IMG/VR virus record: IMGVR_UViG_3300025305_000142
Span: 1 to 23,783 of that record
Source of the DNA: a virus
Strand: one strand, 5' to 3'
DNA length: 23,783 nt
This document shows positions 1 through 23,783 of the stretch, in pieces. How positions within the stretch are numbered: position 1 is the first letter of the stretch; every line of letters starts with the position of its first letter. Both the position numbers and the translations under genes were made by a program. Below the pieces are notes generated by a model. The model searched no databases and was not told the origin of the DNA. It saw only the letters and a program-made list of their open reading frames with translations.

Positions 1-716
1 GCGCCAACTCTACCAGATTTATAATCAGCTATAGTGCTAGCGCGAGAAGAACCATATGGCATGCCTGACGGTCTATGCGCTGCAGCCATGCCGCCTGTAT
101 CGTCACGCACTGGCGGCGGATTCATAGCTCGTTGGCGTTCAGCTTCGGCTTCGTCTGGATCTCGGTACGCGCTTCCATCCAGCGCTGGATCTTCTTCATG
201 AAGAAGATCTGTCTCATCAAGATACTCATAAAGATCATTTTCATCCGTACTGAAGGCATTTCCGGGTTCATCGTCGCGTAAATAGAACGCTTTGTTACCC
301 AGCGCTTCGCCCGGGGGAACCCCAAGGCGTTTACGTGCCGCCTGGCTCTTCTTGGCTTTCTGCTGTGCAGCGTAACGTTCCATCTCAGCTCCACGTTGCT
401 GGTTCCGCTTCCACATTCTGTCCCTGTATTCTTGGCCGCCGGCGTCCGGATGTCGCTTAGCTTTCTCGGTACCAGCCCATTTTTGGCCAGTACCTATAGA
501 TTGCTGTGGTAGCTCCTTGCGGCGAGGCTCAAGGGCCTGCATGATACGTCCTGACAGGCCCTCAAACTCTAAGAGGTCGTTTTCATCCAAATCTTCTTCA
601 TCGAGATATTCATAAAGATCATTTTCATCCAATTCCATCTCATCAAGCTCTTCACCAAGGAAACTTTCTATTTCTTCTTTAATGATGCTTTTTAATTGTT
701 TCTTTGTAATATTCAT
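1..716 (-). CDS. Acidic protein with MKITK-type N-terminal peptide (C-terminus outside window)
   Basis: The reading frame is open from the ATG at 716 to the left edge, so the C-terminus is missing; 238 codons are visible. AGGA lies 9 bases before the start. Residues 1-15 (MNITKKQLKSIIKEE) match the N-termini of the next genes at 1509, 2210 and 3488, and contain I-K-E, the (I/L)-x-E form cut by T4-type prohead protease. Two acidic blocks around residues 29-37 and 157-165 share D-E-N-D-L-Y-E-Y-L-D-E, and 20 bases are identical at DNA level (227-246 and 611-630). The remainder is charged and Gln/Arg/Ala-rich with no recognised domain. I infer a protein packaged in or attached to the capsid; no enzymatic role is visible. 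Confidence 0.85.
   Translation of the reverse strand, partial: MNITKKQLKSIIKEEIESFLGEELDEMELDENDLYEYLDEEDLDENDLLEFEGLSGRIMQALEPRRKELPQQSIGTGQKWAGTEKAKRHPDAGGQEYRDRMWKRNQQRGAEMERYAAQQKAKKSQAARKRLGVPPGEALGNKAFYLRDDEPGNAFSTDENDLYEYLDETDLLHEEDPALDGSAYRDPDEAEAERQRAMNPPPVRDDTGGMAAAHRPSGMPYGSSRASTIADYKSGRVG
227..630. repeat. Direct repeat pair inside the acidic gene
   Basis: A 20-base sequence (cataaagatcattttcatcc) occurs at 227-246 and 611-630 in the same frame of the leftmost gene, encoding the repeated acidic block. It looks like an internal segmental duplication. Confidence 0.8.
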
Positions 717-733
717 ATATAAATTTCCTATAT

Positions 734-745
734 TAATAAATAGTA
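734..745 (-). promoter_or_regulatory. TACTAT box without -35 upstream of the leftmost gene
   Basis: The 12-mer TACTATTTATTA (minus strand) sits 18 bases before the start at 716. The same 12-mer occurs immediately upstream of the tmRNA (22191-22202). No TTGAC-like -35 is present 16-18 bases upstream, unlike the early-type promoters of the window. It may be a promoter of a different class; this is inference from two copies. Confidence 0.4.
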
Positions 746-760
746 TATGATTTTTCTATG

Positions 761-1204
761 TTAGCTGTTAATCCACATTTCAACCAAAGCCCTTCCAGCT
801 TCAGAAAAATCATGATATTCTGTTTTTAAAGTTATACGAGAATAAAGGTCCTCGTCATACTTAAATGATGGTTCAATTTTCCATTTACTACTGCTGTTTT
901 CTTTAATTACCCCGACGGATCGATCTGTTGCTGTTATTTCATATTCCCATAAACTAATTTTTTTATACTTAATCTTTTTGCTTTTACGTTGCTTTACTTC
1001 AAGTCGTTTAACTTTAAGTGCATCACTCACATCATCGATTTTATCTTCGTAATCCCACCAGGGATCAAAATATGTTCCATATTTTCGAAGCGGAGGTATA
1101 TTTTTTGGCAAATTCGCGATATTTGCTGGAAGATAAGGCATTGAACCACGATTTTTGGTTTTTGTGAGGTTCACTTTGTTCTTTGGTTTTTTATATTTTT
1201 GCAT
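761..1204 (-). CDS. Hypothetical basic protein
   Basis: 147 residues from the ATG at 1204. An upstream in-frame start at 1300 would bury a third of the preceding gene, so 1204 is preferred, although its nearest SD-like run (AGAGG) is 18 bases away. The N-terminus is Lys-rich (MQKYKKPKNKV), and the middle has another Lys/Arg cluster. The C-terminal half is a plain globular-looking segment ending in E-M-W-I-N-S. It follows the gene ending at 1219 with a 14-base gap. It lacks the MKITK peptide carried by its neighbours. No family recognised. Confidence 0.65.
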   Translation of the reverse strand: MQKYKKPKNKVNLTKTKNRGSMPYLPANIANLPKNIPPLRKYGTYFDPWWDYEDKIDDVSDALKVKRLEVKQRKSKKIKYKKISLWEYEITATDRSVGVIKENSSSKWKIEPSFKYDEDLYSRITLKTEYHDFSEAGRALVEMWINS

Positions 1205-1218
1205 GATATAACTAACTA

Positions 1219-1509
1219 TTAACCTCTCATGATAACATTTAATCTTCTCTGGACTGATGACGCCTGGGGGAACGCCTGTGCCAAAGTTTGTGCAATCCAC
1301 ATATTTATCTTAACTTTATTCCTGCCTCCACCACGGGCCGCTTCAGCCTGACCAATAATACTGTTTTTATCTTGTCGCGACATCATATTCAGACCCATAA
1401 CCAAATCTTTCAAATCTTCATATATATCATCATCTGAACGACGGGCTTCTTCCAACTTTCCAAGCTCTTCTTTAACAATTCGTTTAAGTTGAGATCTTGT
1501 TATATTCAT
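1219..1509 (-). CDS. Small protein with MKITK-type N-terminal peptide
   Basis: 96 residues beginning MNITRSQLKRIVKEELGKLEEA, the same amphipathic N-terminal signature as the genes at 716, 2210 and 3488. V-K-E/L-E-E stands where the others have I-K-E. The remainder has an acidic helix (SDDDIYEDLKDLVMGLNMM) and a C-terminal helix. No domain recognised. Only 14 bases separate it from the gene ending at 1524, so the two are probably co-transcribed. I infer a small virion or prohead-associated protein from the shared peptide. Confidence 0.75.
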   Translation of the reverse strand: MNITRSQLKRIVKEELGKLEEARRSDDDIYEDLKDLVMGLNMMSRQDKNSIIGQAEAARGGGRNKVKINMWIAQTLAQAFPQASSVQRRLNVIMRG

Positions 1510-1523
1510 TTTTTTATCTTCCT

Positions 1524-1757
1524 TTAAGCCATCATTGACACGTTTTTAACGTTAACACCAACGCCCATGAGAGCCCTAAATAAACTAATATAATTATCAG
1601 TCATATTTGGATTGGATTGACCCATAAGTTTTATGGCCTCAGTTAAAGAATCCATCATCTTTATAACTTCCTGTTGTTCTGGTGTAAAATCCTCACCATA
1701 CAGATCATCAACTTCTTCTTTAATAATTCGTTTAAGTTGTTGTTTTGTTATTTTCAT
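1524..1757 (-). CDS. Nested in-frame product with its own SD and MKITK peptide
   Basis: Internal ATG at 1757 in the frame of the 1524-2210 gene, preceded by GGAGGGTCAATCA. That is one of the strongest Shine-Dalgarno arrangements in the window. The product would be 77 residues: MKITKQQLKRIIKEE, then an acidic segment (VDDLYGEDFTPEQQE) and a helical C-terminus ending N-V-S-M-M-A. Because the peptide is N-terminal in every other carrier here, this start is likely used. Whether the longer fusion is also made cannot be seen. Confidence 0.65.
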   Translation of the reverse strand: MKITKQQLKRIIKEEVDDLYGEDFTPEQQEVIKMMDSLTEAIKLMGQSNPNMTDNYISLFRALMGVGVNVKNVSMMA

Positions 1758-2210
1758 TGATTGACCCTCCGCGATGGGTATATCCGTCGTTGGGTAGACT
1801 AGTCCACCTATCTTTGTCAGAAAATTTTCCATAGTCTTTTTATTTCTAGGGTGCACTCGCCCTTTTTCAAGAATATCCTGCAACCCATCTCTAAGCGCCA
1901 CCGCGTAATCGCACGCATACTTCGGTCTTTTCACAGAATCCATCTCGACTAACCACGGAAGATAAACCATGTTTCCTTCGTTATACCCTTCTGTTGCTTC
2001 TTTTCCAACGCACCATGGCTTCCACATGTTAACAAAATCTTTTAACAACCATCCCTCGTGATCACCGGGCTCTCGATATAAGCCGACGACGTGATTCTTA
2101 GCGAGGGTTTCTGGGGAGCAGTAGCCGTGTGAGCAGATCTCTTGCGCTTCTTTGAGAGATTTTATCTCTTCCTTAATAATCCGTTTAAGTTGTTGTTTTG
2201 TGATTTTCAT
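1524..2210 (-). CDS. Protein carrying the MKITK peptide twice (fused or nested genes)
   Basis: 228 residues from the ATG at 2210 (GGGAG 8 bases upstream). Residues 1-15 (MKITKQQLKRIIKEE) reappear identically at residues 152-166. The first module (about 150 residues) has Cys and Trp pairs and no recognised family; the second (77 residues) is helical. The DNA of the two peptide copies is near-identical (2172-2210 and 1719-1757, about three differences in 39). The second copy is preceded by GGAGGG six bases before its ATG, so it can start independently. The ORF therefore looks like two adjacent genes fused in frame by loss of a stop, or one gene making two products. Confidence 0.8.
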   Translation of the reverse strand: MKITKQQLKRIIKEEIKSLKEAQEICSHGYCSPETLAKNHVVGLYREPGDHEGWLLKDFVNMWKPWCVGKEATEGYNEGNMVYLPWLVEMDSVKRPKYACDYAVALRDGLQDILEKGRVHPRNKKTMENFLTKIGGLVYPTTDIPIAEGQSMKITKQQLKRIIKEEVDDLYGEDFTPEQQEVIKMMDSLTEAIKLMGQSNPNMTDNYISLFRALMGVGVNVKNVSMMA

Positions 2211-2310
2211 ACAGAATTCTCCCTTTCCATAGAGTAATTAGTTGCTTATCTTGAAGAACGCCCACCAAAATCCGGCAATTTTTTCCCCGAAATTTTTCTT
2301 AACAGTCAAT

Positions 2311-2535
2311 AAACGTTAACTTGTACTTTGTTCTAACGTTCCTATATTATTACTATGCGAATTAGTCGGAGAGCCAAAAAAGTAATTTCTTGGCGTTTTA
2401 TATCCATGACCTTGGCCACGTTAATTTGTTATCCATTCATAGGATCGATGACGAAATCTATTGGCCTAACGTTAATAATCAACGCCATTATGACGGTTGT
2501 ACATTATTACTTCGAGAAATGGTGGGAACGTTAAT
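2311..2535. repeat. AACGTTAA-type motif cluster in a gene-free stretch
   Basis: The 324 bases between 2211 and 2534 hold no credible gene; only ORFs of about 20 codons without SD were seen. Five copies of an ACGTTAA/AACGTT core lie at about 2313, 2335, 2418, 2469 and 2528, several with the palindrome AACGTT. Isolated copies occur at about 1549, 4300 and 11411. Function is unknown; binding sites for a regulator or a decayed gene are both possible. Confidence 0.5.
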
Positions 2536-3488
2536 TATCGGATTAGTTTTTCAAGTTCTTTCATTGAAATATCAAAATCGGGTGCATTCTTCTTCCGCGT
2601 CCTGCCCTCGTTTTTGGATGACACAGATCGATTTTCTGCGCGTGCTATTTCACATCGTCGACGCTGATCAATATCTTGTACTCCGGCACATGACGTATCG
2701 GTTTCATCCAACTCCATGCTTTCGCTTTTAGGAGGACATTTCATATCACCCGTTTGTACACATTTTGTCATTTTGCCGGTCTTGGTGTCATAAGTGCGCG
2801 TTTTCGTACCCACCACTGTTTCCGTACCAATTGGTTTACCTTCCTTCAAGGGAGGTGGCTCTTCCTTTGCAATTGACGTTGGGGGATTCATTGCAACCGC
2901 CTGAGCCAAGGCTGCTTTATCCTTGGCCAATTGTTCAGGTGTTGCTTTGCTAAGGAATTTTTCACGAGCTGCTTTAAATTTAGGTCGGTTTCTATCAATC
3001 CGCGCTTGAGGATCCTCCTGCCACTTATAACCTTTTCTATGCCGGCCAACCCAATCGCGCCTTGCATCACGTTGCGCCAAAGAAGCTTTGTATTCATCGG
3101 TTTCACGAAAGCTAGCATCTTTTCGTCCCATGCGGATGTTGTCCATATCTTTTCTGGTGAGGCGAGGCTTTTTAGTTTTGGGGTTAACTTGGATTTTTTT
3201 CCTGGCTTGAGCTGCAGCTGCTTGCGCATCTTCCGCAGCATTATCGAAATCAGCCTCTGCATCCATATACGACGTCCGCTCATCATCGGTAAATTGCGCC
3301 CAAGCGTCACTGGTCATTTTTCGCCCAGGGCGAAATTCGACGTCAATCTCACCACGTTCTCGCGCGCGAGCCCTACGTTCAGGTGAATCTTCATCGCTGC
3401 CCCATTCGCCTTCCATCCAGAGTTCATCCAAAACATTCTTAGTTTCTTCTTGGATGATTTTTTTAATATCCGACTTTGTAATTTTCAT
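2535..3488 (-). CDS. Charged protein with MKITK-type N-terminal peptide
   Basis: 317 residues; ATG at 3488 with GAGG 10 bases upstream. Residues 1-15 are MKITKSDIKKIIQEE, containing I-Q-E, the same signature as at 716, 1509 and 2210. The body is rich in Lys, Arg, Asp, Glu and Ala and is probably largely disordered or helical. It has an Ala-rich acidic stretch near residues 80-95 and a Cys-containing region (CVQTGDMKCPP, DTSCAGVQ) near 240-270. No catalytic domain is recognised. Composition and N-terminus suggest a capsid-internal or scaffold-like protein, as inference. Confidence 0.8.
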   Translation of the reverse strand: MKITKSDIKKIIQEETKNVLDELWMEGEWGSDEDSPERRARARERGEIDVEFRPGRKMTSDAWAQFTDDERTSYMDAEADFDNAAEDAQAAAAQARKKIQVNPKTKKPRLTRKDMDNIRMGRKDASFRETDEYKASLAQRDARRDWVGRHRKGYKWQEDPQARIDRNRPKFKAAREKFLSKATPEQLAKDKAALAQAVAMNPPTSIAKEEPPPLKEGKPIGTETVVGTKTRTYDTKTGKMTKCVQTGDMKCPPKSESMELDETDTSCAGVQDIDQRRRCEIARAENRSVSSKNEGRTRKKNAPDFDISMKELEKLIR

Positions 3489-10006: not shown

Positions 10007-10235
10007 CGTTTTCCTTTTTGCCGTAGTTTTTAACGGCTCGTGTAATCATTATAGGAACGCTTTTCTTGTGGACAAGGGTTAAAACCTCATCAAGCAACGA
10101 TTGTATCTCTATGATATCACTGTCAAATTGCTCGTTTAGTTCCAGCTTCTCTCCAAGTAGCTGAGATTGTTCAAGATATTTCTTAGCTCGATTGAGCTTT
10201 ACTTTAAGATGTTGAAATGTTTCAGCTTTTTGCAT
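9999..10235 (-). CDS. Small coiled-coil protein overlapping a promoter
   Basis: 78 residues from the ATG at 10235, with GAGG six bases upstream. Mostly one long helix (KVKLNRAKKYLEQSQLLGEK, SDIIEIQSLLDEVLTLV), likely a coiled coil. Residues about 54-63 (L-V-H-K-K-S-V-P-I-M) are encoded by the promoter at 10048-10075, so this promoter lies fully inside coding sequence. No family recognised. Confidence 0.75.
   Translation of the reverse strand: MQKAETFQHLKVKLNRAKKYLEQSQLLGEKLELNEQFDSDIIEIQSLLDEVLTLVHKKSVPIMITRAVKNYGKKENDV
10048..10075 (-). promoter_or_regulatory. Early-type promoter inside the coiled-coil gene
   Basis: TTGTCC (10070-10075), 16-base spacer ending GTTCC, consensus TATAAT (10048-10053). 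Predicted start about 10041; drives the gene at 10006. Confidence 0.8.
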
Positions 10236-10401
10236 TTTGGACCTCGACTAGTTGAAGTTGATAGGACATGAACGGGTAATATTTGCCGTCAAGCAATATC
10301 TTATAGCATGGCGTGAGCCCGATGAGATACGAAACCCCGGCAACCAAACCGATCGGATAACCATCGACCTTGCAAACTCTCACTAGGTCACCGATTTTCA
10401 C
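10222..10401 (-). CDS. KVGDLV-family beta-barrel-like protein
   Basis: 59 residues from a GTG at 10401, with GGAGG six bases upstream. Starts (V)KIGDLVRVCKVDGYPIGLV and has the central strand Y-K-I-L-L-D-G. The C-terminus (LVEVQNAKS) is a variant of the family's E-V-I end; it encodes the SD and overlaps the start of the next gene by 14 bases. The fold is inferred to be a small SH3/KOW-like barrel; ligand unknown. Confidence 0.75.
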   Translation of the reverse strand: MKIGDLVRVCKVDGYPIGLVAGVSYLIGLTPCYKILLDGKYYPFMSYQLQLVEVQNAKS

Positions 10402-10591
10402 TGATTACCTCCAAACAAAAATCAGCATGACGTGCGAGGTACCCGTTTTGACACTGAACGTGATAAGCCTGATGCTTCCAAGCACTCTCGCGAGGATCGA
10501 ACGGCAGCTTCTCGATGATTATTCCCATCGTGCCGTCTGGAGCGTGACGAGAGCCGTATCTAATTATTCTCACTAGGTCACCCACTTTCAC
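10388..10591 (-). CDS. KVGDLV-family beta-barrel-like protein
   Basis: 67 residues from a GTG at 10591 (GGAAG nearby upstream); a longer frame to 10627 lies inside the previous gene and is rejected. MKVGDLVRIIRYG, then G-T-M-G-I-I-I-E-K, a Cys/His-bearing insert (YHVQCQNGYLARHADFC) and the end LEVISENR. The last codons overlap the start of the next gene by 14 bases. Confidence 0.8.
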   Translation of the reverse strand: MKVGDLVRIIRYGSRHAPDGTMGIIIEKLPFDPRESAWKHQAYHVQCQNGYLARHADFCLEVISENR

Positions 10592-10745
10592 TAATGACTT
10601 CCAAAAGAGTACCAGAACAAGAACCAATCTCGCCAGTGTCTAAAATCATGAAACTGGGATACTTATAACCCCCAGATTCTTTAATCTCAATCACTAGCGC
10701 AATCCAGTTGTAGTCAATCCGTTTCACGAGGTCACCGGCTTTCAT
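10578..10745 (-). CDS. KVGDLV-family beta-barrel-like protein
   Basis: 55 residues from the ATG at 10745, with GGAG seven bases upstream. MKAGDLVKRIDYNWIALVIEI, then Y-P-S-F-M-I-L-D-T-G and the family end LLEVISESG. The final 14 bases also encode the start of the next gene. An upstream in-frame start at 10808 lies within the previous gene and lacks an SD. Confidence 0.8.
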   Translation of the reverse strand: MKAGDLVKRIDYNWIALVIEIKESGGYKYPSFMILDTGEIGSCSGTLLEVISESG

Positions 10746-10905
10746 TAACCAACTCCAACTCGCCCAGCGGAATCCATACTGGTTCTGAACATTCGGGAAT
10801 ATACGCAAGCACCGCAGGGTTGACGCTCTTCGGCGGCTTAGTTTTCAAAACAATCCCCAGCAATTTGCCGCGATCCTTCCATCTTACCAAATCACCGACT
10901 TGCAC
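10732..10905 (-). CDS. KVGDLV-family beta-barrel-like protein
   Basis: 57 residues from a GTG at 10905 (GGAGG six bases upstream). MQVGDLVRWKDRGKLLGIVL, a Pro-rich loop, then P-V-W-I-P-L-G and the end ELELVNESR. Starts inside the last codons of the gene ending at 10892, and its own end holds the start of the next gene. Confidence 0.8.
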   Translation of the reverse strand: MQVGDLVRWKDRGKLLGIVLKTKPPKSVNPAVLAYIPECSEPVWIPLGELELVNESR

Positions 10906-11101
10906 TTATAACCTCCAAGTCACGCGAAAGGCTCCGTATAGATCGCGCCCCATATTTAGGGTGTTCCGTCAGTTGAACAATAAAAATGGGCCAATTCATG
11001 TCATCGTCGTAAGGCGTATGACATTCTGTGATTAGGCCGATGGTGTTATTAGGAACACCAATTCGAGCCCTTGTAGTTTTTACTAGATCACCGGGTTGCA
11101 T
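10892..11101 (-). CDS. KVGDLV-family beta-barrel-like protein
   Basis: 69 residues from the ATG at 11101 (GAGG six bases upstream, inside the E-V codons of the gene before). MQPGDLVKTTRARIGVPNNT, then IGLITECHTP, W-P-I-F-I-V-Q-L and DLEVISASR. Chained by 14-base overlaps at both ends. Confidence 0.8.
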   Translation of the reverse strand: MQPGDLVKTTRARIGVPNNTIGLITECHTPYDDDMNWPIFIVQLTEHPKYGARSIRSLSRDLEVISASR

Positions 11102-11285
11102 TCAGAACCTCAAAGTCTCGTGGGCTTTCCCAAGTCATTGTTTCACCAATGTGCGCTGGTTTCGCTGGCCAACTGATTTTGTAACGGTAAACGCCGATGG
11201 CGACGCGTTCTACCGTGTGTATTAAACCCGTGCCTTCATAAGTGCTGGCATGGGGTTTATAAATAACTAAATCACCGACTTTCAT
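11088..11285 (-). CDS. KVGDLV-family beta-barrel-like protein
   Basis: 65 residues from the ATG at 11285 (AAGG six bases upstream). MKVGDLVIYKPHASTYEGTG, then L-I-H-T-V-E-R-V and Y-R-Y-K-I-S-W, ending DFEVLNATR. 14-base overlaps at both ends. Confidence 0.8.
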   Translation of the reverse strand: MKVGDLVIYKPHASTYEGTGLIHTVERVAIGVYRYKISWPAKPAHIGETMTWESPRDFEVLNATR

Positions 11286-11451
11286 TTATCACCTTCAAAC
11301 ATACGCTAACTTCTGCCGTGGGAGTGCGCCTGGTTGTCCAAAGCACCAAAACTCCAACACTGTGTTTAGGTACGCCGACTTCCGTCACCAAACCAATCCC
11401 CAACGAAGGAACGTTAATATGTTTTACTAAATCGCCGGGTTTCATTTTCAT
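11272..11451 (-). CDS. KVGDLV-family beta-barrel-like protein, head of a run
   Basis: 59 residues if it begins at ATG 11451, which overlaps the stop of the membrane-protein gene (ATGA); an ATG two codons later (11445) gives MKPGDLVKHINVPSLGIG. Family features: G-L-V-T-E-V, V-G-V-L-V-L-W and the end LKVINESR. It heads the run down to 10222 and is transcribed from the promoter at 11480-11507, which lies inside the upstream gene. The SD is a weak AAGAAGAAG purine tract. Confidence 0.75.
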   Translation of the reverse strand: MKMKPGDLVKHINVPSLGIGLVTEVGVPKHSVGVLVLWTTRRTPTAEVSVCLKVINESR

Positions 11452-12035: not shown

Positions 12036-13289
12036 TCACTTTGCAATTGCGATTACACGCTCGTTTGTCTTGAAGTATGGGCGGCGGGCACTTTCCGCGT
12101 CCGTCATCCACATGCGGGCACATTTGCTGGACTTAGGCTTAGGGGCGCACATATCCGTAAGGACGATGTGAGCATCAAATCTGCCAGCATTAACGTATTC
12201 GGTAGGAGCATTGAAACACGTTCCACCGTAGAGAACACGTTCACGTTTGCGGGTTTCACCCTTACGCCACTGATATACTTTGTCCTCGGCAACGCGCGTG
12301 TCAAAGGGAATGACCGTGAAGGTTGCGATCTCAGCCAACTTGTTAAGTTCGGAGTAAAACACCGCTAACATACTGTCAGACACCGAACCAGATTGATCGA
12401 TAGAAATGGCAATATTCGCTTGTCTACGGACTTTGCGGCCAGGATGGACGTAAGGGTAGCGTTTGTTGAGACGCTTCACTGTGGAGCGTTTCTCGGCCCT
12501 CTGAGAGCATTTGACGAAGTAACGTAGCACTTTGCGCCAGTCAAGCACCGGAGAAATCCGATCCATGATCTCTTTTCTCATCGATGAAGAAATGGACCCC
12601 CAAGAATTGACCTTCGATGCATCGTCAGCAGCCTGTTTAACAGCGTCGGTAAGGCGTTGCTTCGCGATCTCTTTTGTCGCAGTATCGCAGGCTTTTCCGC
12701 CCCATTGGCTATGGTCATCGAAAGAATCCATATCACTTAAAGATCCTTTAGAATCGCCCTCAGAATCCTCGCCAGAACCATCTTCTGGTTTTCCTTCTTT
12801 CTCTTTTTCTTCCTGCTCGGCCTTTTCTTTCAGCTTTGCGTAATAGTATTCAGTGCTTTGAAATTCTGGAAACTCCTCGAAATAGCCATGACCAGGAAAG
12901 CAGCCATTTTCAGGCAAGTTCTCTTTGCCAATGTGACAGTTGATAGAAAGATCAGCTGCGATATTGTACAACTTGAACAGGGCTTGCTTCTCAGGATCAA
13001 CTTGACCCTCAAAGATACCAGCCAGTTCATCAGGCAAGCGGCCAAGGATATGCTCCATCACAAGATGATAAAACTCATGTACAAGTACGCCGGAGCGCTG
13101 CTTATCACTCTCCAAGCCCTCAAAGAACTCAGGGTTATAAAGCAACTCAAAGAAACCCGTGTCAGGATTGATACGGACACCGGCAGTCGGGATGTTCTTA
13201 TCCTCAGTCTTATCGACGTTACGCGAAAGAGAAGCAAAGAAAGGCTCATCTTGAAGCAAGCGAAAGATATGATCGTTAAGGTTGAACAT
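12036..13289 (-). CDS. VWA-like protein with N-terminal zincin-type domain
   Basis: 417 residues; ATG at 13289 with GGGGAG five bases upstream. The N-terminal domain contains H-E-F-Y-H (residues 71-75) with a further E79, the zincin HExxH pattern of VWA-like/DUF2201-type proteins. An acidic Ser/Glu-rich linker spans about 155-195. The C-terminal domain has MIDAS-type residues: D-Q-S-G-S at 298-302, T357 in G-G-T, and D379 in V-L-T-D-M. In cellular relatives such proteins act as metal-binding partners of MoxR AAA+ ATPases in remodelling or maturing targets. The MoxR gene is directly upstream, and each has its own early-type promoter. The phage target is unknown. Confidence 0.88.
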   Translation of the reverse strand: MFNLNDHIFRLLQDEPFFASLSRNVDKTEDKNIPTAGVRINPDTGFFELLYNPEFFEGLESDKQRSGVLVHEFYHLVMEHILGRLPDELAGIFEGQVDPEKQALFKLYNIAADLSINCHIGKENLPENGCFPGHGYFEEFPEFQSTEYYYAKLKEKAEQEEKEKEGKPEDGSGEDSEGDSKGSLSDMDSFDDHSQWGGKACDTATKEIAKQRLTDAVKQAADDASKVNSWGSISSSMRKEIMDRISPVLDWRKVLRYFVKCSQRAEKRSTVKRLNKRYPYVHPGRKVRRQANIAISIDQSGSVSDSMLAVFYSELNKLAEIATFTVIPFDTRVAEDKVYQWRKGETRKRERVLYGGTCFNAPTEYVNAGRFDAHIVLTDMCAPKPKSSKCARMWMTDAESARRPYFKTNERVIAIAK

Positions 13290-13324
13290 GATGCTCCCCT
13301 AATAAGTAGTTGTCTTACACTGTA

Positions 13325-13352
13325 AAGATAAGCACCCCTCAACAATCGTCAA
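13325..13352 (-). promoter_or_regulatory. Early-type promoter of the VWA gene
   Basis: TTGACG (13347-13352), 16-base spacer ending GTGCT, TATCTT (13325-13330), GTGTAA four bases on. Predicted start about 13318. It is embedded in a dyad (13330-13361). Confidence 0.8.
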
Positions 13353-13361
13353 GGGGTGCTT
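13330..13361. repeat. Dyad spanning the VWA promoter
   Basis: A perfect 10-bp inverted repeat (AAGCACCCCT / AGGGGTGCTT, 12-base loop) covers the interval from just upstream of the -35 to the edge of the -10. It could be an operator, or a hairpin ending the MoxR transcript. Confidence 0.6.
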
Positions 13362-13364
13362 GTG

Positions 13365-13402
13365 AAAAAAATGAACAGGGTTGCCACGTCGGGCCAGCAA
13401 CC
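13365..13402 (-). terminator. Possible intrinsic terminator after the MoxR gene
   Basis: Hairpin GGTTGC / GCAACC (13379-13402) on the minus strand is followed seven bases later by seven T residues (13371-13365). The distance to the T run is long, so this is tentative. The interval 13403-13477 holds nothing else recognisable beyond a 20-codon ORF without SD. Confidence 0.4.
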
Positions 13403-13477
13403 TAGCCCAGCCTGCTTTCTACATCCGTTAAAGACCGTTCAGGACAGGCGTTGAACAGCATCATAGTTGAGTCATAG

Positions 13478-14542
13478 CTATTCATTTTTTCCGGTGAGCA
13501 TAGTAACCATGCGAGTTGAAACTTTCGTACCATCTTCGGCCTTTGACTTGTGAAGCGCGATGACGTTCTCATTCACGCCTTTGCCAATCGACGTCCAGAG
13601 TTTCATTGCTGGCTCGGAAGGAAGACACACGAAGTAGTTAGCCAAGTTTTGGATCTGAGTCTCATCGAGAACCGCGGCAAAGGCATTGCTAGCTTCGATT
13701 TTCTCGATCAGCGCGCAATGCTCGTTGATGCCAAAGTTCGACGTCTTGTCGATCTTACCATCGTCGAGGATCATCTCAACCGTTACTTGACGCTCATAGT
13801 TTTGAACGAAGTCATTGAAAGCAACAGCAGCCTCGAAACCAACAAACGCAGTGGCAAGGTGGTAAATCGAAGACTTGTCCGTATGTTCGGAAAGAAAGTC
13901 AGCGGTTACGAGACAATCGTTGAAACGCTTCCAGGATCGGCGCGAAGGATAAACTTTGTTAGGCTCGAAATCAGTCTGATGCTCCAAGTGAGAACGATTC
14001 TGATTGATGAAGTCCCAAACAACGCCATCGACCTCGACCTTGGCCCAGTCGAGCCAATCCTCAATCGTCGGCTCGACGTCAAAGACCGTCCATCGATCAA
14101 GCTCAGCAGGGTCCATCTCGCCAACCTGATATTGCGAACCGTGGTCGCCACCGTTGATTGCAGCAACGATGACGGTATCGGGATGGAGGTGATTACCAAA
14201 CAGTTTGCGTGAATCTGTTAGCTCGAATAGACCCTGCCTCACTTCTGTGACGGCGCGATCGACCTCATCGAAAAAGAGGACAACACCACTGTCGCAAGCC
14301 GTCTGAAACCAATCAGGTGGACAAAATGAAGTAACGTCCCCATCAGTCTTGGGAAGACCGACCAGATCGCCTTCAGTCATTTGTGAAGCGCGGCGCTCGA
14401 TAACAGGCTTGCAAAGCAAACTTGCAAGTTGATAAACAACCTCGGATTTGCCGACACCATGTCGGCCACGAAGAAGAATTGGCTTGCGAACCGCCGCGAC
14501 GTGCGGGGCAACTTGATTAAATGTTTTGAAATCGATGGCCAT
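13478..14542 (-). CDS. MoxR-type AAA+ ATPase
   Basis: 354 residues; ATG at 14542 with AAGGAG about seven bases upstream. Walker A is G-R-H-G-V-G-K-S (26-33). Walker B is V-V-L-F-F-D-E-V-D (87-95). Sensor-1 Asn is in A-A-I-N (N130), and L-D-R-W (148-151) holds an arginine at the usual MoxR position. The M-T-E-G-D-L-V-G segment (55-62) is typical of MoxR proteins. The product should form a hexameric ATP-driven remodelling ring, with the VWA-like protein encoded just downstream as probable partner. Both use their own early-type promoters, implying expression during takeover rather than assembly (inference). Confidence 0.92.
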   Translation of the reverse strand: MAIDFKTFNQVAPHVAAVRKPILLRGRHGVGKSEVVYQLASLLCKPVIERRASQMTEGDLVGLPKTDGDVTSFCPPDWFQTACDSGVVLFFDEVDRAVTEVRQGLFELTDSRKLFGNHLHPDTVIVAAINGGDHGSQYQVGEMDPAELDRWTVFDVEPTIEDWLDWAKVEVDGVVWDFINQNRSHLEHQTDFEPNKVYPSRRSWKRFNDCLVTADFLSEHTDKSSIYHLATAFVGFEAAVAFNDFVQNYERQVTVEMILDDGKIDKTSNFGINEHCALIEKIEASNAFAAVLDETQIQNLANYFVCLPSEPAMKLWTSIGKGVNENVIALHKSKAEDGTKVSTRMVTMLTGKNE

Positions 14543-16242: not shown

Positions 16243-16402
16243 TGGGAAAAAACACAGGAAAGAATTCAATGTGATCATTCAAGTCTTTCTTTAATGATTC
16301 CAAGTTCTTGAACACGATGGCAGCGACCTCTTTATCCTCTTCGAGAAGGCGGGTGTGGGTGTCTTCCATGTATCCTATCAAAAATCGCAACAAGCTATCC
16401 AA
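16229..16402 (-). CDS. Small acidic helical protein
   Basis: 57 residues if begun at the TTG at 16402, which has GAGG six bases upstream and overlaps the previous stop by eight bases. An ATG at 16369 (MEDTHTRLLEEDKEVAAIVF) is the alternative. Helical acidic body (FKNLESLKKDLNDHIEFF) and a hydrophobic/acidic tail whose last codons lie in the promoter at 16215-16242. No family recognised. Confidence 0.6.
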   Translation of the reverse strand: MDSLLRFLIGYMEDTHTRLLEEDKEVAAIVFKNLESLKKDLNDHIEFFPVFFPIDDE

Positions 16403-16619
16403 TTGGAGCCTCGCTGATGACCTTGAGCATCTTTTGAGGCCACGTGTCCCTAACCTCTTCAATATTCAACCAAGTAACGATAGGCATTTGTGTAAGATCT
16501 TCCTTGTCGGTTACAATGCCGATAATGCCGGAAGGCCAATGCTCGTAGCCGCCATCAGGATCTGACGTCGGTGCGCGATCCAAAAGCTCAACCAAATCGC
16601 CAACTTTAGCTAGCTGCAT
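16395..16619 (-). CDS. KVGDLV-family beta-barrel-like protein
   Basis: 74 residues from the ATG at 16619 with GGAG seven bases upstream. MQLAKVGDLVELLDRAP has a short N-terminal extension. Then GIIGIVTDKED, M-P-I-V-T-W-L and the family end LKVISEAPIG. Its start lies in the last 14 bases of the gene before. Confidence 0.8.
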   Translation of the reverse strand: MQLAKVGDLVELLDRAPTSDPDGGYEHWPSGIIGIVTDKEDLTQMPIVTWLNIEEVRDTWPQKMLKVISEAPIG

Positions 16620-16779
16620 TTAGCAACTCCATACCCCACTCGCCAACAGTTTCCTGTGTTGGCGTGCGAAACTTGGCCCACCGAACTGTGACTACGGTAC
16701 TCTTCTTACATTCATATAAATCTGTGATTATTCCAACGTCATCATCGTGAACACATTTTACTAGGTCACCGACTTTCAT
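16606..16779 (-). CDS. KVGDLV-family beta-barrel-like protein
   Basis: 57 residues from the ATG at 16779. MKVGDLVKCVHDDDVGIITD, then V-V-T-V-R-W and the end MELLNAAS. Its start is inside the last codons (Y-E-S-R-stop) of the pyrophosphohydrolase-like gene; the SD (GGAAC) is weak. Its own last 14 bases encode the start of the next gene. Confidence 0.8.
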   Translation of the reverse strand: MKVGDLVKCVHDDDVGIITDLYECKKSTVVTVRWAKFRTPTQETVGEWGMELLNAAS

Positions 16780-17068
16780 ACTGTTCCAATATGATTCTAT
16801 CCTTGAATCCGCCTCGTTCTTTTCGCTTATTTTCTACAGCCAACTTTAAACGAGGCATCTTTATCTCGTGTAACTCGCAAATTGAAAGGAAAACTTCCCA
16901 CATATCCGCTGCCTCTTCGTAACACGGTGTATTAACAAATTCATCAAGCTCTTCGCGCATCTTTTCATATAAACGCGCTTTATATTCGTCATAGTTGGCA
17001 ACGTGATAAACACAAGCCCTCCCGTCCTTCTCGATGATAAGGGGAATAAAGTCTCTAACTAGCTTCAC
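16766..17068 (-). CDS. MazG/PRA-PH-like nucleotide pyrophosphohydrolase
   Basis: 100 residues from a GTG at 17068 with GAGG six bases upstream; this gives the family-typical start M-K-L-V-R-D-F-I-P, whereas the longer frame to 17125 lies inside the previous gene. The helical core carries E-E-L-D-E-F (residues 40-45) and E-E-A-A-D-M-W-E-V (51-59), matching the metal-binding ExxE...ExxD pattern of all-alpha NTP pyrophosphatases. The C-terminus has K-R-K-E-R-G-G-F. Likely hydrolyses non-canonical or excess (d)NTPs. It ends in ...Y-E-S-R because its last codons are also the start of the next KVGDLV gene, so it is embedded in that chain. Confidence 0.8.
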   Translation of the reverse strand: MKLVRDFIPLIIEKDGRACVYHVANYDEYKARLYEKMREELDEFVNTPCYEEAADMWEVFLSICELHEIKMPRLKLAVENKRKERGGFKDRIILEQYESR

Positions 17069-17237
17069 TAATGACCTCACAACCTCTTTCGACGTATTTC
17101 TTTGGAAGCCAATGTGGTTTTCCATCGGTGCATAAAACTAGGTAGGGTTCTTTTTTCCTGCGATCTACGATCTCAAGAATCATTCCAATGCCGTCCTCGG
17201 GCCAACGCAAATCTCTTATCAAATCGCCTATATTCAT
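17055..17237 (-). CDS. KVGDLV-family beta-barrel-like protein, probably leaderless
   Basis: 60 residues from the ATG at 17237: MNIGDLIRDLRWPEDGIGMI, then Y-L-V-L-C-T-D-G and GCEVISEAS. The ATG begins seven bases after the -10 of the promoter at 17244-17271, and no SD precedes it. A transcript from that promoter would therefore be leaderless. An upstream TTG frame lies within the promoter spacer. The last 14 bases contain the start of the pyrophosphohydrolase-like gene. Confidence 0.75.
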   Translation of the reverse strand: MNIGDLIRDLRWPEDGIGMILEIVDRRKKEPYLVLCTDGKPHWLPKKYVERGCEVISEAS

Positions 17238-17243
17238 ACTATT

Positions 17244-17271
17244 ATTATAGGCACCGTTTTTCAATGGTCAA
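17244..17271 (-). promoter_or_regulatory. Early-type promoter with consensus -10
   Basis: TTGACC (17266-17271), 16-base spacer ending GTGCC, TATAAT (17244-17249). The upstream gene ends S-V-D-H-stop through the -35 and spacer. Confidence 0.85.
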
Positions 17272-17461
17272 CGGACTGAGTTGTGCTTATCGACTCCAAT
17301 TCATAGTCTTTGAACCATTCATATAACAGTTCAAACCGGACTTTATACCAATAGAAGCCGTCATCATCCTCATATAATTCTAATACAATACCATAGACAT
17401 CTGTTGGATAACCGGAGTGTGCATAAAAAGGCCTTAATTTTACTACGTCACCGACATGCAC
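17261..17461 (-). CDS. KVGDLV-family beta-barrel-like protein
   Basis: 66 residues from a GTG at 17461 (GAGG six bases upstream, inside the previous gene's E-V codons). MHVGDVVKLRPFYAHSG, then V-Y-G-I-V-L-E-L, W-Y-K-V-R-F and YELESIS. Past the usual end it has seven extra residues (TTQSVDH) encoded by the promoter at 17244-17271. Confidence 0.8.
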   Translation of the reverse strand: MHVGDVVKLRPFYAHSGYPTDVYGIVLELYEDDDGFYWYKVRFELLYEWFKDYELESISTTQSVDH

Positions 17462-17636
17462 TGACGACCTCTAAATCAGTATGCTTGAATCTATATGAAA
17501 CGCCACCGAAATTTACATCAACACATCCCCACAACTCCTGTACGTGGACTTTGGTTATCAAACCAATTTTACTCTCATAAGGCAAACCTTTACGGGTTTT
17601 TCTTATAGACAACTTCGTTAAATCACCGACTTTCAT
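17448..17636 (-). CDS. KVGDLV-family beta-barrel-like protein
   Basis: 62 residues from the ATG at 17636. MKVGDLTKLSIRKTRKGLPY, then K-I-G-L-I-T-K-V, V-D-V-N-F-G-G and DLEVVSACR. Starts in the last 14 bases of the GIY-YIG gene, and its end holds the next start. Confidence 0.8.
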   Translation of the reverse strand: MKVGDLTKLSIRKTRKGLPYESKIGLITKVHVQELWGCVDVNFGGVSYRFKHTDLEVVSACR

Positions 17637-17880
17637 TGATAACCTTTTCCTTTTGTTTTCGTGTTAACTGCTTAAAATTATATTCGGCTATCTGTGCAGT
17701 CGATTGATTCTCAAAGTCCACGCAGTATACCAATTCCACTGGGCGGCGAGATCTCGTGTATCTCGAACCACGTTTGCTCGTGTTATGTTCATTCAGTCGC
17801 CTGGAAATGTCAGTGGTCACGCCGGTGTATAACGTGCCGTCGCTACATCGTAGGACATAAAGAAACCATTCTTTAACCAC
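17623..17880 (-). CDS. GIY-YIG domain protein (UPF0213/YhbQ-like)
   Basis: 85 residues from a GTG at 17880 with GAGG six bases upstream. The domain fills the protein: F-L-Y-V-L-R-C (6-12) and L-Y-T-G-V-T (17-22) replace the G-I-Y and Y-I-G strands, followed by R26-R27, H31 and a Tyr-rich basic segment. Size and sequence fit single-domain UPF0213 proteins and small GIY-YIG nucleases. No DNA-binding extension is present. It sits mid-chain among KVGDLV genes and ends V-I-N-E-S-R, the same overlapping junction as theirs. Confidence 0.88.
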   Translation of the reverse strand: MVKEWFLYVLRCSDGTLYTGVTTDISRRLNEHNTSKRGSRYTRSRRPVELVYCVDFENQSTAQIAEYNFKQLTRKQKEKVINESR

Positions 17881-18076
17881 TGACTACCTCAACCCAGCCT
17901 TTGTCTATGGCCACAAATTCGCACCTCAATGCTTTCTTATCGCCAGACCACAGAATATCGATGCAATTTTCCGTCTCGGTGATTGGGTCACGCGACCATC
18001 TCACAGTATACGGTTCGCTAGCGACGACACCATAGCTGCCATCGTGATTATCTTTTACAAGGTCACCGATTTTCAT
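17873..18076 (-). CDS. KVGDLV-family beta-barrel-like protein
   Basis: 67 residues from the ATG at 18076 with GGAG six bases upstream. MKIGDLVKDNHDGSYGVVAS, a strand with C-I-D-I-L-W-S-G and VEVVSG. Residues 36-57 resemble the gene at 18597-18812 (CIDVLWFGSEK), so these two are close paralogs. Its end contains the GTG of the GIY-YIG gene. Confidence 0.8.
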   Translation of the reverse strand: MKIGDLVKDNHDGSYGVVASEPYTVRWSRDPITETENCIDILWSGDKKALRCEFVAIDKGWVEVVSG

Positions 18077-18091
18077 TATTTTCTCCGTTTT

Positions 18092-18187
18092 TTATACGGC
18101 TAGGCCATGGGCCAGGATAGAAATCACCCCAGCAAACACTAAAATTCTAAACAGGTTGTCAGCCTCTTTTGCTATGTTATTTTTCAT
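18092..18187 (-). CDS. 31-residue membrane peptide
   Basis: ATG at 18187 with AGGAG six bases upstream. A charged start (MKNNIAKEADNLFR) is followed by a hydrophobic segment (ILVFAGVISILAHGLAV) to the end, suggesting one membrane helix. First gene after the promoter at 18207-18234, with a leader of about 13 nt. Confidence 0.6.
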   Translation of the reverse strand: MKNNIAKEADNLFRILVFAGVISILAHGLAV

Positions 18188-18206
18188 TTTTTACTCCTAC
18201 ATGCAT

Positions 18207-18234
18207 AATATAGTGACTATTTTTACTAAGTCAA
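18207..18234 (-). promoter_or_regulatory. Sigma70-type promoter with stop codon in -35
   Basis: TTGACT (18229-18234), 16-base spacer lacking the GTKCY end, TATATT (18207-18212). The TGA stop of the upstream gene (18231-18233) is part of the -35. Confidence 0.75.
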
Positions 18235-18431
18235 ACAGAATTTATTATTTCTGCTTCCCAATATGGCTCATCAAAAGTCACGTGCCCCTCGTCAGTATAT
18301 ATGTTAAATATCCGATATGAATCTGGGACGATGGTCTTATATTTAATACCAGTGACTATGCCTAATGCCGAATAAGTCACAGGGAAACGCTCATCAGGAT
18401 CATAAACCCTAATTAAATCACCGACTTTCAC
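18231..18431 (-). CDS. KVGDLV-family beta-barrel-like protein
   Basis: 66 residues from a GTG at 18431 (GAGG six bases upstream). MKVGDLIRVYDPDERFPVTY, then A-L-G-I-V-T-G-I, R-I-F-N-I-Y-T-D-E-G and E-A-E-I-I-N-S-V. The stop lies in the -35 of the next promoter. Confidence 0.8.
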   Translation of the reverse strand: MKVGDLIRVYDPDERFPVTYSALGIVTGIKYKTIVPDSYRIFNIYTDEGHVTFDEPYWEAEIINSV

Positions 18432-18600
18432 TTATGACCTCGATTGTTTCGTCTGGCCGCCATGAAATATATGGATTTCTACCCAGCTTCATTCCCTCAG
18501 ATGGTTCGAACCAGTATACCTCCCACATTGAATCAATAGTTTCCGATAAAACAATCCCAGTTATTTCTGAGTATCTGTCTTTTACAAGATTTCCTATCAT
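18418..18600 (-). CDS. KVGDLV-family beta-barrel-like protein, divergent start
   Basis: 60 residues from the ATG at 18600, overlapping the previous stop (ATGA). MIGNLVKDRYSEITGIVLSE, then W-E-V-Y-W-F-E and IEVISESR. The start is shortened relative to MKVGDLVK, and the junction is a simple ATGA rather than the 14-base overlap. Its own end has the full overlap. Confidence 0.8.
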   Translation of the reverse strand: MIGNLVKDRYSEITGIVLSETIDSMWEVYWFEPSEGMKLGRNPYISWRPDETIEVISESR

Positions 18601-18812
18601 ATTACAACCTCTACAGAACCATTTTCAATAGCTGAATAATCAACACGGCTGGGCTTTTCGCTACCAAACCACAAAACATCGATGCATCGTGCATTAAACT
18701 CCCAGCCTTGACCGGAACTACTAATATCATAGGGTAGGCGCGCAATGACGCCATATTCAGGCGGCGATGTAGCTAACAAGCCATCGGTTTTTACCAAATC
18801 ACCCACCTTCAC
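18597..18812 (-). CDS. KVGDLV-family beta-barrel-like protein
   Basis: 71 residues from a GTG at 18812 with GGAGG six bases upstream. MKVGDLVKTDGLLATSPPEY, then G-V-I-A-R-L, C-I-D-V-L-W-F-G and SVEVVI. Close paralog of the gene 17873-18076. Confidence 0.8.
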   Translation of the reverse strand: MKVGDLVKTDGLLATSPPEYGVIARLPYDISSSGQGWEFNARCIDVLWFGSEKPSRVDYSAIENGSVEVVI

Positions 18813-21954: not shown

Positions 21955-22189
21955 TGGAGGCGTGCGGTATCGAACCGCAGTCCTAAATGCTTTAATATTT
22001 TGCGATATACAAGGTTTAAAAATTGTTAACCCGGTTTTGGGTAACAAGGAAACCGGAAACCCCGCCATAGCTTACGCAGCCATTGGTAGTGCTACATCGT
22101 TTGCAGCTATTGTTTCGAGCCTTATAATGTTTGCTCATACATCCTTGCACAAAATATCTCCCTCATCTAGTCGAAGCCATTTCGCCCCC
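21955..22189 (-). ncRNA. ssrA: Compact phage tmRNA
   Basis: 235 nt. Acceptor stem GGGGGCG (22183-22189) pairs with CGCCTCC (21956-21962), including G3-U70, the alanine identity pair, with discriminator A at 21955 and no encoded CCA. T-arm TGCGG-TTCGATA-CCGCA and a TLD of the type GGGGGCGAAATGGCTTCGAC are as in other tmRNAs. Helix P2 pairs ATATTTTG (22150-22157) with CAAAATAT (21995-22002), and TGCAAGG (22143-22149) with CCTTGTA (22008-22014). Pseudoknot 1 (22117-22142: ATGT/ACAT crossed with GAGC/GCTC) precedes the tag. Pseudoknot 2 (22023-22056: CCGGTTT/AAACCGG crossed with TTGTTA/TAACAA) follows it. tmRNA with SmpB rescues stalled ribosomes and tags the nascent chain. Host tmRNAs are usually about 350-400 nt with more pseudoknots, so this is a reduced form. 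Confidence 0.95.
22072..22104 (-). other. tmRNA tag reading frame
   Basis: GCA resume codon at 22102-22104 through TAA at 22072-22074 encodes A-N-D-V-A-L-P-M-A-A-stop. Upstream ACAATAGCT resembles the conserved resume-setting bases of other tmRNAs. The first residues match A-N-D of E. coli (ANDENYALAA); the end is M-A-A rather than L-A-A. Confidence 0.9.
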
Positions 22190-23033: not shown

Positions 23034-23783
23034 TTAAATAACTTCTTCGCCTGCTCCCGCCGCTGCGGGTGCTTCTCCACCAAGTTCTCCACCAAGTTCT
23101 GCGTCAAATTCTGCGCCAGCTTCAGTGCCAGCTTCGTCTTCGTCTTTTTCTGCTTCATATTCATCTGTTGTTGGCTCCGTTACTGCTCCAAGTTCTTGTT
23201 CCCATTTATCAAAATATAATTTTAAATTTGTAATGAGATAATCTTGAAAAAGTTTTTCATCACTTTCATCATGCAATATAGCATAAGTTTCAGTAATATT
23301 TTTCTCTATATTATTAAAAGCTTCTTGTGCGAGTGCTCGTCCAGTTGCATCTTGGCCTTCAATACCAAATGTATCTGGCTCTTCTGGTTCTTGGGGTTCA
23401 GCTTCTATATCAATAAATTTATCATCAGCTGGAGCATCAACATCGGATACTTTAATATCTACCTCTTCTTCGATATCGCCTTCTTCTTCGTCTAAACTAA
23501 TTAATCCTTCTTCTTCGCCAGCGGCTCCGCCAGCTTTATTAATATCTTCGGTGTCCAAAAGCGTAGAAACGGCATTAACAACATGTGCTCTGAAAGAATC
23601 GCGCTGTTCCCTGGCAGTTGTTAGTGTTTTAAATTCTGTTTCAAGATTCGGGAGAATTTGCTTAAGTAAGTCTTCAAGAATATTAATTGCTGTTGAAGAG
23701 TGAGGAGTATCTTCAATATCTTTTTTTGCTTCTTGAATTAAGTGGCGAACAACTTTTCTAATTTGCATCTCATCGTCTTCAAC
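23034..23783 (-). CDS. Acidic protein, N-terminus possibly outside window
   Basis: The frame stays open from the stop at 23034 to the right edge. The first ATG in the window (23768) has no SD and is preceded by in-frame V-E-D-D-E codons, so the start may lie outside. Visible: M-Q-I-R-K-V-V-R-H-L-I-Q-E-A (resembling the MKITK-type peptide and containing L-I-Q-E), a helical segment, and a long Glu/Asp-rich region. A C-terminal half with E-A/G-rich repeats ends A-A-A-G-A-G-E-E-V-I. It may be a scaffold-like or virion protein (inference from acidity and the peptide). No domain recognised. Confidence 0.75.
   Translation of the reverse strand, partial: VEDDEMQIRKVVRHLIQEAKKDIEDTPHSSTAINILEDLLKQILPNLETEFKTLTTAREQRDSFRAHVVNAVSTLLDTEDINKAGGAAGEEEGLISLDEEEGDIEEEVDIKVSDVDAPADDKFIDIEAEPQEPEEPDTFGIEGQDATGRALAQEAFNNIEKNITETYAILHDESDEKLFQDYLITNLKLYFDKWEQELGAVTEPTTDEYEAEKDEDEAGTEAGAEFDAELGGELGGEAPAAAGAGEEVI

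Follow-up and report, generated by a model that had tools for sequence, protein, structure and literature searches.

In phage T4, the first ten residues of IPIII suffice for packaging (PMC9026906), and the gp21 sites ITE-6 and LTE-619 of Alt follow the rule (I/L)-x-E (PMC5694885), which by sequence comparison is likewise fitted by the FIAE of IPII and IPIII. Among giant phages, SPN3US encodes two paralogues with identical first 15 residues (PMC5694885). Here we analyzed a short N-terminal peptide (hereafter the tag) shared by otherwise unrelated proteins (the carriers) that are encoded in IMG/VR virus record IMGVR_UViG_3300025305_000142, positions 1 to 23,783; this whole stretch of 23,783 nucleotides is referred to as the window. 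In a preliminary description of this DNA the peptide was taken for a removable, T4-type capsid-targeting propeptide. With a probability of roughly 0.74, we propose that the tag is a capsid-targeting propeptide of marine T4-type phages, which would work like that of T4 but with another sequence and on another scale.

The window copies were scored in 439 open reading frames (ORFs) with a profile built from 373 carriers on other contigs only, and all window E-values derive from this independent profile, as the alignment A1 contained the window copies and its E-values were therefore not used. Exactly five sites were recovered (18.9–36.2 bits, E 6.6e-11 to 1.9e-5), namely the N-termini of carriers A to D and an internal, in-frame copy in carrier B (Table 1), the latter as previously described. 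The four genes were also said to be successive, which does not hold strictly since an untagged ORF lies between carriers C and D. An L-x-E ending at residue 21 or 22 was present in four of the five copies (A, the first copy of B, C, and D), while the internal copy of carrier B had none at 21–22. The two copies in carrier B differ at several third codon positions, and a Shine-Dalgarno-like GGAGG precedes the internal Met, which allows separate translation, so that carrier B is either one two-unit protein or two proteins made from two start sites; an AlphaFold model of carrier B alone was not usable (predicted local distance difference test score, pLDDT, of 37). For the body of carrier A no homologue was found by search. 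The stretch RKVVRHLIQEA at 23034–23783, initially counted as a related form, was dropped as a sixth copy. Its gene is truncated at the end of the window, and full-length homologues of 310–330 amino acids (aa; L333, L334, and L337) have the stretch in an internal position. The encoded protein, on the minus strand, is acidic, and its homologues begin EEMSSMAGGDVGG, resembling the start of the mature capsid protein (SSSMAGGDVEGF following E).

Across the 373 non-redundant carriers, the tag consensus reads M-K-I-T-K-x-Q-L-K-Q-I-I-K-E-E-[LI]-x-x-[VL]-L-x-E (residues 1–22), with information content in the logo falling to background level beyond residue 22. As the regular expression used to search for carriers specified residues 1–15 only, the L-x-E at 20–22 is an unforced result: [LI]-x-E ended exactly at residue 22 in 31% of the carriers, compared to ~1% for the majority of later positions, and 48% had it ending somewhere between residues 19 and 24, vs. 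6% in shifted windows. I-x-E14 was almost always present, which was partly demanded by the search pattern. The putative tag end matches the cleavage rule of T4 gp21; the I-K-E originally proposed as the cleavage end does conform to (I/L)-x-E, although the cut may also lie eight residues further on, at the L-x-E closing with E22. The residues of the tag stay constant although their codons vary (six different codons are used at L8, for instance), and selection therefore acts on the peptide. This variation of synonymous codons argues against a DNA-level feature, i.e., a site for recombination or an enhancer of translation initiation at the 5' end of late genes that would have the peptide as its by-product. 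Such a feature would also leave the L-x-E endings unexplained, and the peptide recurs internally without Met. The somewhat narrower codon choice in the tag than in the protein bodies (ACA, CTT, ATC, and AGA are favoured) speaks for it but fits spread by duplication or recombination too; a bS21-like gene (phage ribosomal protein) is moreover often part of the head operon in carrier genomes, in line with a translation role linked to bS21. Taken together, we regard a DNA-level origin as highly improbable.

In an alignment of 90 carriers, conservation was confined to the first 15 residues, which agrees with the earlier statement that the proteins are otherwise dissimilar. Few of these 90 match Pfam, and carriers are orphans or of accessory type rather than replication enzymes, with YkuD and a weak RegB match among the domains on carriers of this tag. 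Could they be diverged paralogues of a single family of which only the N-terminus is still recognisable? Tandem clusters of carriers and the closeness of window copies B and C at the DNA level would be expected in that case, but so short an alignable region, the presence of unrelated known domains (YkuD, DUF6321), and the fact that the tag precedes a cargo unit in one genome but lies within a fusion protein in another make this the least probable of the explanations considered here.

The DNA pattern for the peptide was found in at least 119 IMG/VR stretches, and between 2 and 32 copies of the tag are present on single phage contigs. The profile from other contigs gave no match of ≥ 12 bits across IMG/VR loci picked at random and totalling 1.37 Mb, and on the carrier loci analyzed it gave 507 matches, compared to none on the reversed sequences. 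Among 84,980 genomes of bacteria and archaea the DNA pattern occurred on three contigs, all phage-like in appearance, among them one from a Methylococcaceae TMED69 metagenome-assembled genome that also has PF03420 and a Halobacteriovorax contig that matches viral record L119 in length and in its tagged genes. Among cultured phages, the profile had one match in Flavobacterium phage immuto (related N-termini in immuto 2-6A, host Flavobacterium sp. LMO8: MKKSQLRQIIKEALD, QQO91870, and MKKSELVKLIKEELN, QQO91855), which encodes a T4-type protease; phiKZ, SPN3US, and lambda had no match. An uncultured 484-kb phage with a T4-type protease and capsid protein had 19 profile matches; it also gave the single, weak match when consensus peptides of 24–25 residues were compared to cultured phages by tblastn.

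Peptidase S77 (PF03420), the T4-type prohead protease, was encoded by 27/36 carrier contigs of at least 50 kb and by 17/19 of at least 100 kb, vs. 3/18 random contigs (27/36 vs. 3/18, Fisher p = 9e-5), and in 17 of 22 genomes a tag lay at most 12 kb from the protease (combined p = 0.004), both p values being indicative, as carrier contigs are related and partly fragments. The co-occurrence that had been suggested as a check by profile search was thus found. In the S77-encoding genome G070, tagged genes are located within the head operon, directly upstream of the terminase and of the protease, and in several other genomes a tagged gene adjoins the protease. Furthermore, 12 major capsid proteins from carrier loci share LLENQA or MLENQA..[LV]L[KR]E ahead of the conserved shell sequence, where T4 gp23 is processed, and the proteases in carrier loci mostly begin LLRE or LLTE; L-x-E is accordingly predicted to end the propeptide of the major capsid protein of carrier genomes as well.

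Two further observations concern the head operon. A conserved protein of 129–144 aa lies between the protease and the bS21-like gene (L159:9631-10059(-) and homologues); it starts MKKSDLKQLIKPLVKECIHEVLLEEG, has a tag-like build, and is possibly a core protein. In G039:136937-138493 and LR756508:156507-158102 the prohead protease occupies one frame of 576–579 aa that is matched in two pieces about 1 kb apart, and the intervening ~1 kb could be an insert, possibly an intein.

A view of the window's own genome neighbourhood is offered by G076, a 189.6-kb contig syntenic with the window (MoxR 91% and VWA 85% identical, same gene order). It encodes an S77 protease (PF03420) at 31,777–32,220 and a T4-like head module made up of terminase, portal, a scaffold-like protein, and a capsid protein that is gp23-like and has LLRE followed by ASSMA, these head genes having been named by likeness to those of other loci. 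At the place of the window carriers G076 has a cluster of 8 kb, the majority of whose genes are tagged, and the gene at the syntenic place of carrier A is tagged in both G076 (where the retained tag is MKITKLQIKKIIQEEIENVLEE) and another relative, G077. The idea that the window carriers lie immediately upstream of the head module was abandoned, as the equivalent cluster of G076 is ~75 kb away from the protease.

A second tag, MKLLFENWRKFLNE, is found on other proteins of the same genomes, and in the G076 cluster genes with the one and the other tag take turns; the second tag has an L-x-E end in 69/131 core matches, although L-x-E was not asked for, and its carriers include GNAT, zeta toxin, and ParB_N domains. 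Tags are also found inside proteins, carrier B being one case. A 475-aa protein of G076 has three, the last of them ahead of a basic DUF6321 unit, whereas in G077 the DUF6321 protein is encoded by a separate tagged gene; likewise, a small unit with YLSNIYKWC occurs behind both N-terminal and internal tags. The retention of tags at fusion joints agrees better with internal cutting than with an address that acts at the N-terminus only, a recent fusion without function being a possible alternative. In L382 (12515-13195 and 7746-9272), tag-like stretches are also located C-terminally on tagged proteins (ITKADLKKVIREELEAFLDD; RKLIEEVYDEVLAEEG), recalling T4 Alt. T4 Alt is cut at both ends.

Several findings weigh against a removable capsid-targeting propeptide. 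In approximately half of the carriers there is no L-x-E close to residue 22, so that these would need I-x-E14, which is followed by E, whereas T4 has A. The carrier genomes are related and the tests thus non-independent, nine carrier contigs of 50–112 kb lack PF03420 (these are probably fragments), tagged clusters are far from the protease in G017, G021, G041, and G042, and the window itself (23.8 kb) contains no head gene and no Peptidase S77. The profile found no tag in T4, KVP40, HTVC008M, Syn9, P-SSM2, S-SCSM1, or Cr30, and the protease alone therefore does not predict the tag. An alternative is a docking helix that is retained uncut and locates its carriers without maturation, by binding the scaffold, the portal, some other part of the virion, or a protein of the host. 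The missing L-x-E endings and the better conservation of residues 1–15 than of L-x-E at 20–22 would agree with it, and certain propeptide regions of giant phages are retained with function unaffected (PMC5694885). We nevertheless consider it unlikely, as conservation ends at L-x-E, the same L-x-E closes both the predicted propeptide of the capsid protein and the second tag, and internal tags are preserved right ahead of fused cargo units.

Table 1. Tagged genes, their tags, and the interposed ORF in the window (all on the minus strand)
Feature	Position (strand)	Description
Carrier A	2535..3488 (-)	317 aa, charged; starts MKITKSDIKKIIQEE; no Pfam/PHROG match
Tag of carrier A	3423..3488 (-)	MKITKSDIKKIIQEETKNVLDE; L-D-E end at 20-22
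Carrier B	1524..2210 (-)	228 aa; starts MKITKQQLKRIIKEE; two tags in one frame
Carrier B tag, first copy	2148..2210 (-)	MKITKQQLKRIIKEEIKSLKE; next residue A
Carrier B tag, internal copy	1713..1757 (-)	MKITKQQLKRIIKEE; in-frame, start at 1757
Carrier C	1219..1509 (-)	96 aa; starts MNITRSQLKRIVKEE
Tag of carrier C	1447..1509 (-)	MNITRSQLKRIVKEELGKLEE; next residue A
ORF without tag, between carriers C and D	761..1204 (-)	start uncertain
Carrier D	1..716 (-)	starts MNITKKQLKSIIKEE; 3' end truncated at the window boundary; repeated DENDLYEYLDE stretch
Tag of carrier D	651..716 (-)	MNITKKQLKSIIKEEIESFLGE; L-G-E end at 20-22

Apart from the tagged genes, the window encodes a MoxR-type ATPase that adjoins a DUF2201 VWA/metallopeptidase protein (12036-14542(-)), a pair conserved at 85–91% in G076 while the surrounding small genes diverge. 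About a dozen small proteins at 10222-11451 and 16395-18812(-) start with M-[KQ]-x-G-D-L-V, many of them with EVISESR-like tails, and are an expanded paralogue family. A transfer-messenger RNA gene (21955-22189(-), predicted tag ANDVALPMAA) lies in a region partly conserved in L334.

The reading of the tag as a removable capsid-targeting propeptide is upheld in part, by its (I/L)-x-E end, the co-occurrence with the protease (including in the syntenic relative), the carriers within head operons, and the absence from random viral DNA. In this proposal, a large group of marine T4-type phages has a tag of 15–22 residues, probably helical, on many proteins that are otherwise unrelated and for the most part small. 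During head assembly it would bind the prohead core, whereby the carrier becomes part of the prohead, and a gp21-type (Peptidase S77) protease would then cut after (I/L)-x-E, the site being I-x-E14, L-x-E20-22, or both. The tag would leave, while the carrier would remain in the head with the DNA and would probably enter the host by ejection, to act there as a DNA-binding protein or early effector. In fusions of two or three carriers, the internal tags would act as polyprotein cut sites. We infer core binding, cleavage, packaging, and ejection from sequence comparisons. More tentatively, marine T4-type and jumbo phages might possess a general loading system, with two interchangeable removable tags, up to ~30 fast-changing cargos per genome, and internal tags that turn fused cargos into polyproteins cut in the prohead, by which a large effector set would be delivered together with the DNA. 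If true, the tag would provide a sequence rule for spotting proteins of uncultured marine phages that are packaged in the head and probably injected, most of which are otherwise unannotated; hundreds of orphan genes would become candidate effectors, and the loading principle of T4 would be far more used than its few internal proteins suggest. The peptide may also serve as a new tag for loading engineered phage heads.

In the open-access literature no relevant paper was found for the peptide strings, and searches of full texts for an N-terminal peptide shared among phage proteins led to work on T4 and SPN3US only, which is not proof that the tag is new. The huge phages that encode bS21 (PMC9723584) have a similar block of terminase, portal, protease, and major capsid protein, with bS21 near the protease; the text of that paper, searched for "N-terminal", mentions no shared peptide. 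In the giant phages SPN3US and phiKZ, many inner-head proteins likewise have N-terminal propeptides that a related protease removes, but these propeptides are mostly longer than 100 residues and are cut after A/S/G-x-E, whereas the conserved sites of the marine tag are I/L-x-E, and the tag profile finds nothing in either phage. Closest is the capsid targeting sequence of T4 (IPI-III and Alt, with gp21), which is also a short N-terminal peptide with an (I/L)-x-E end on unrelated, mostly small accessory proteins, and an S77-type protease is encoded by the window's relatives too. The T4-type character stated in the preliminary description thus appears to hold for the principle, judging by the sequence evidence, and not for the peptide, which is absent from T4 and most of the cultured T4-like phages tested. 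The marine tag is longer and differs in sequence (MKITKxQLKQIIKEE vs. MKTYQEFIAEA in T4), for which reason membership among the T4-type capsid targeting sequences by descent is not established; the second tag, with its order of aromatic, aromatic, L/I-x-E, comes closer to the MKTYQEFIAE of T4, a likeness in pattern only. What also sets the marine phages apart from T4 is that up to ~30 carriers occur per genome, two tag types are present together, and internal copies are found in fusions.

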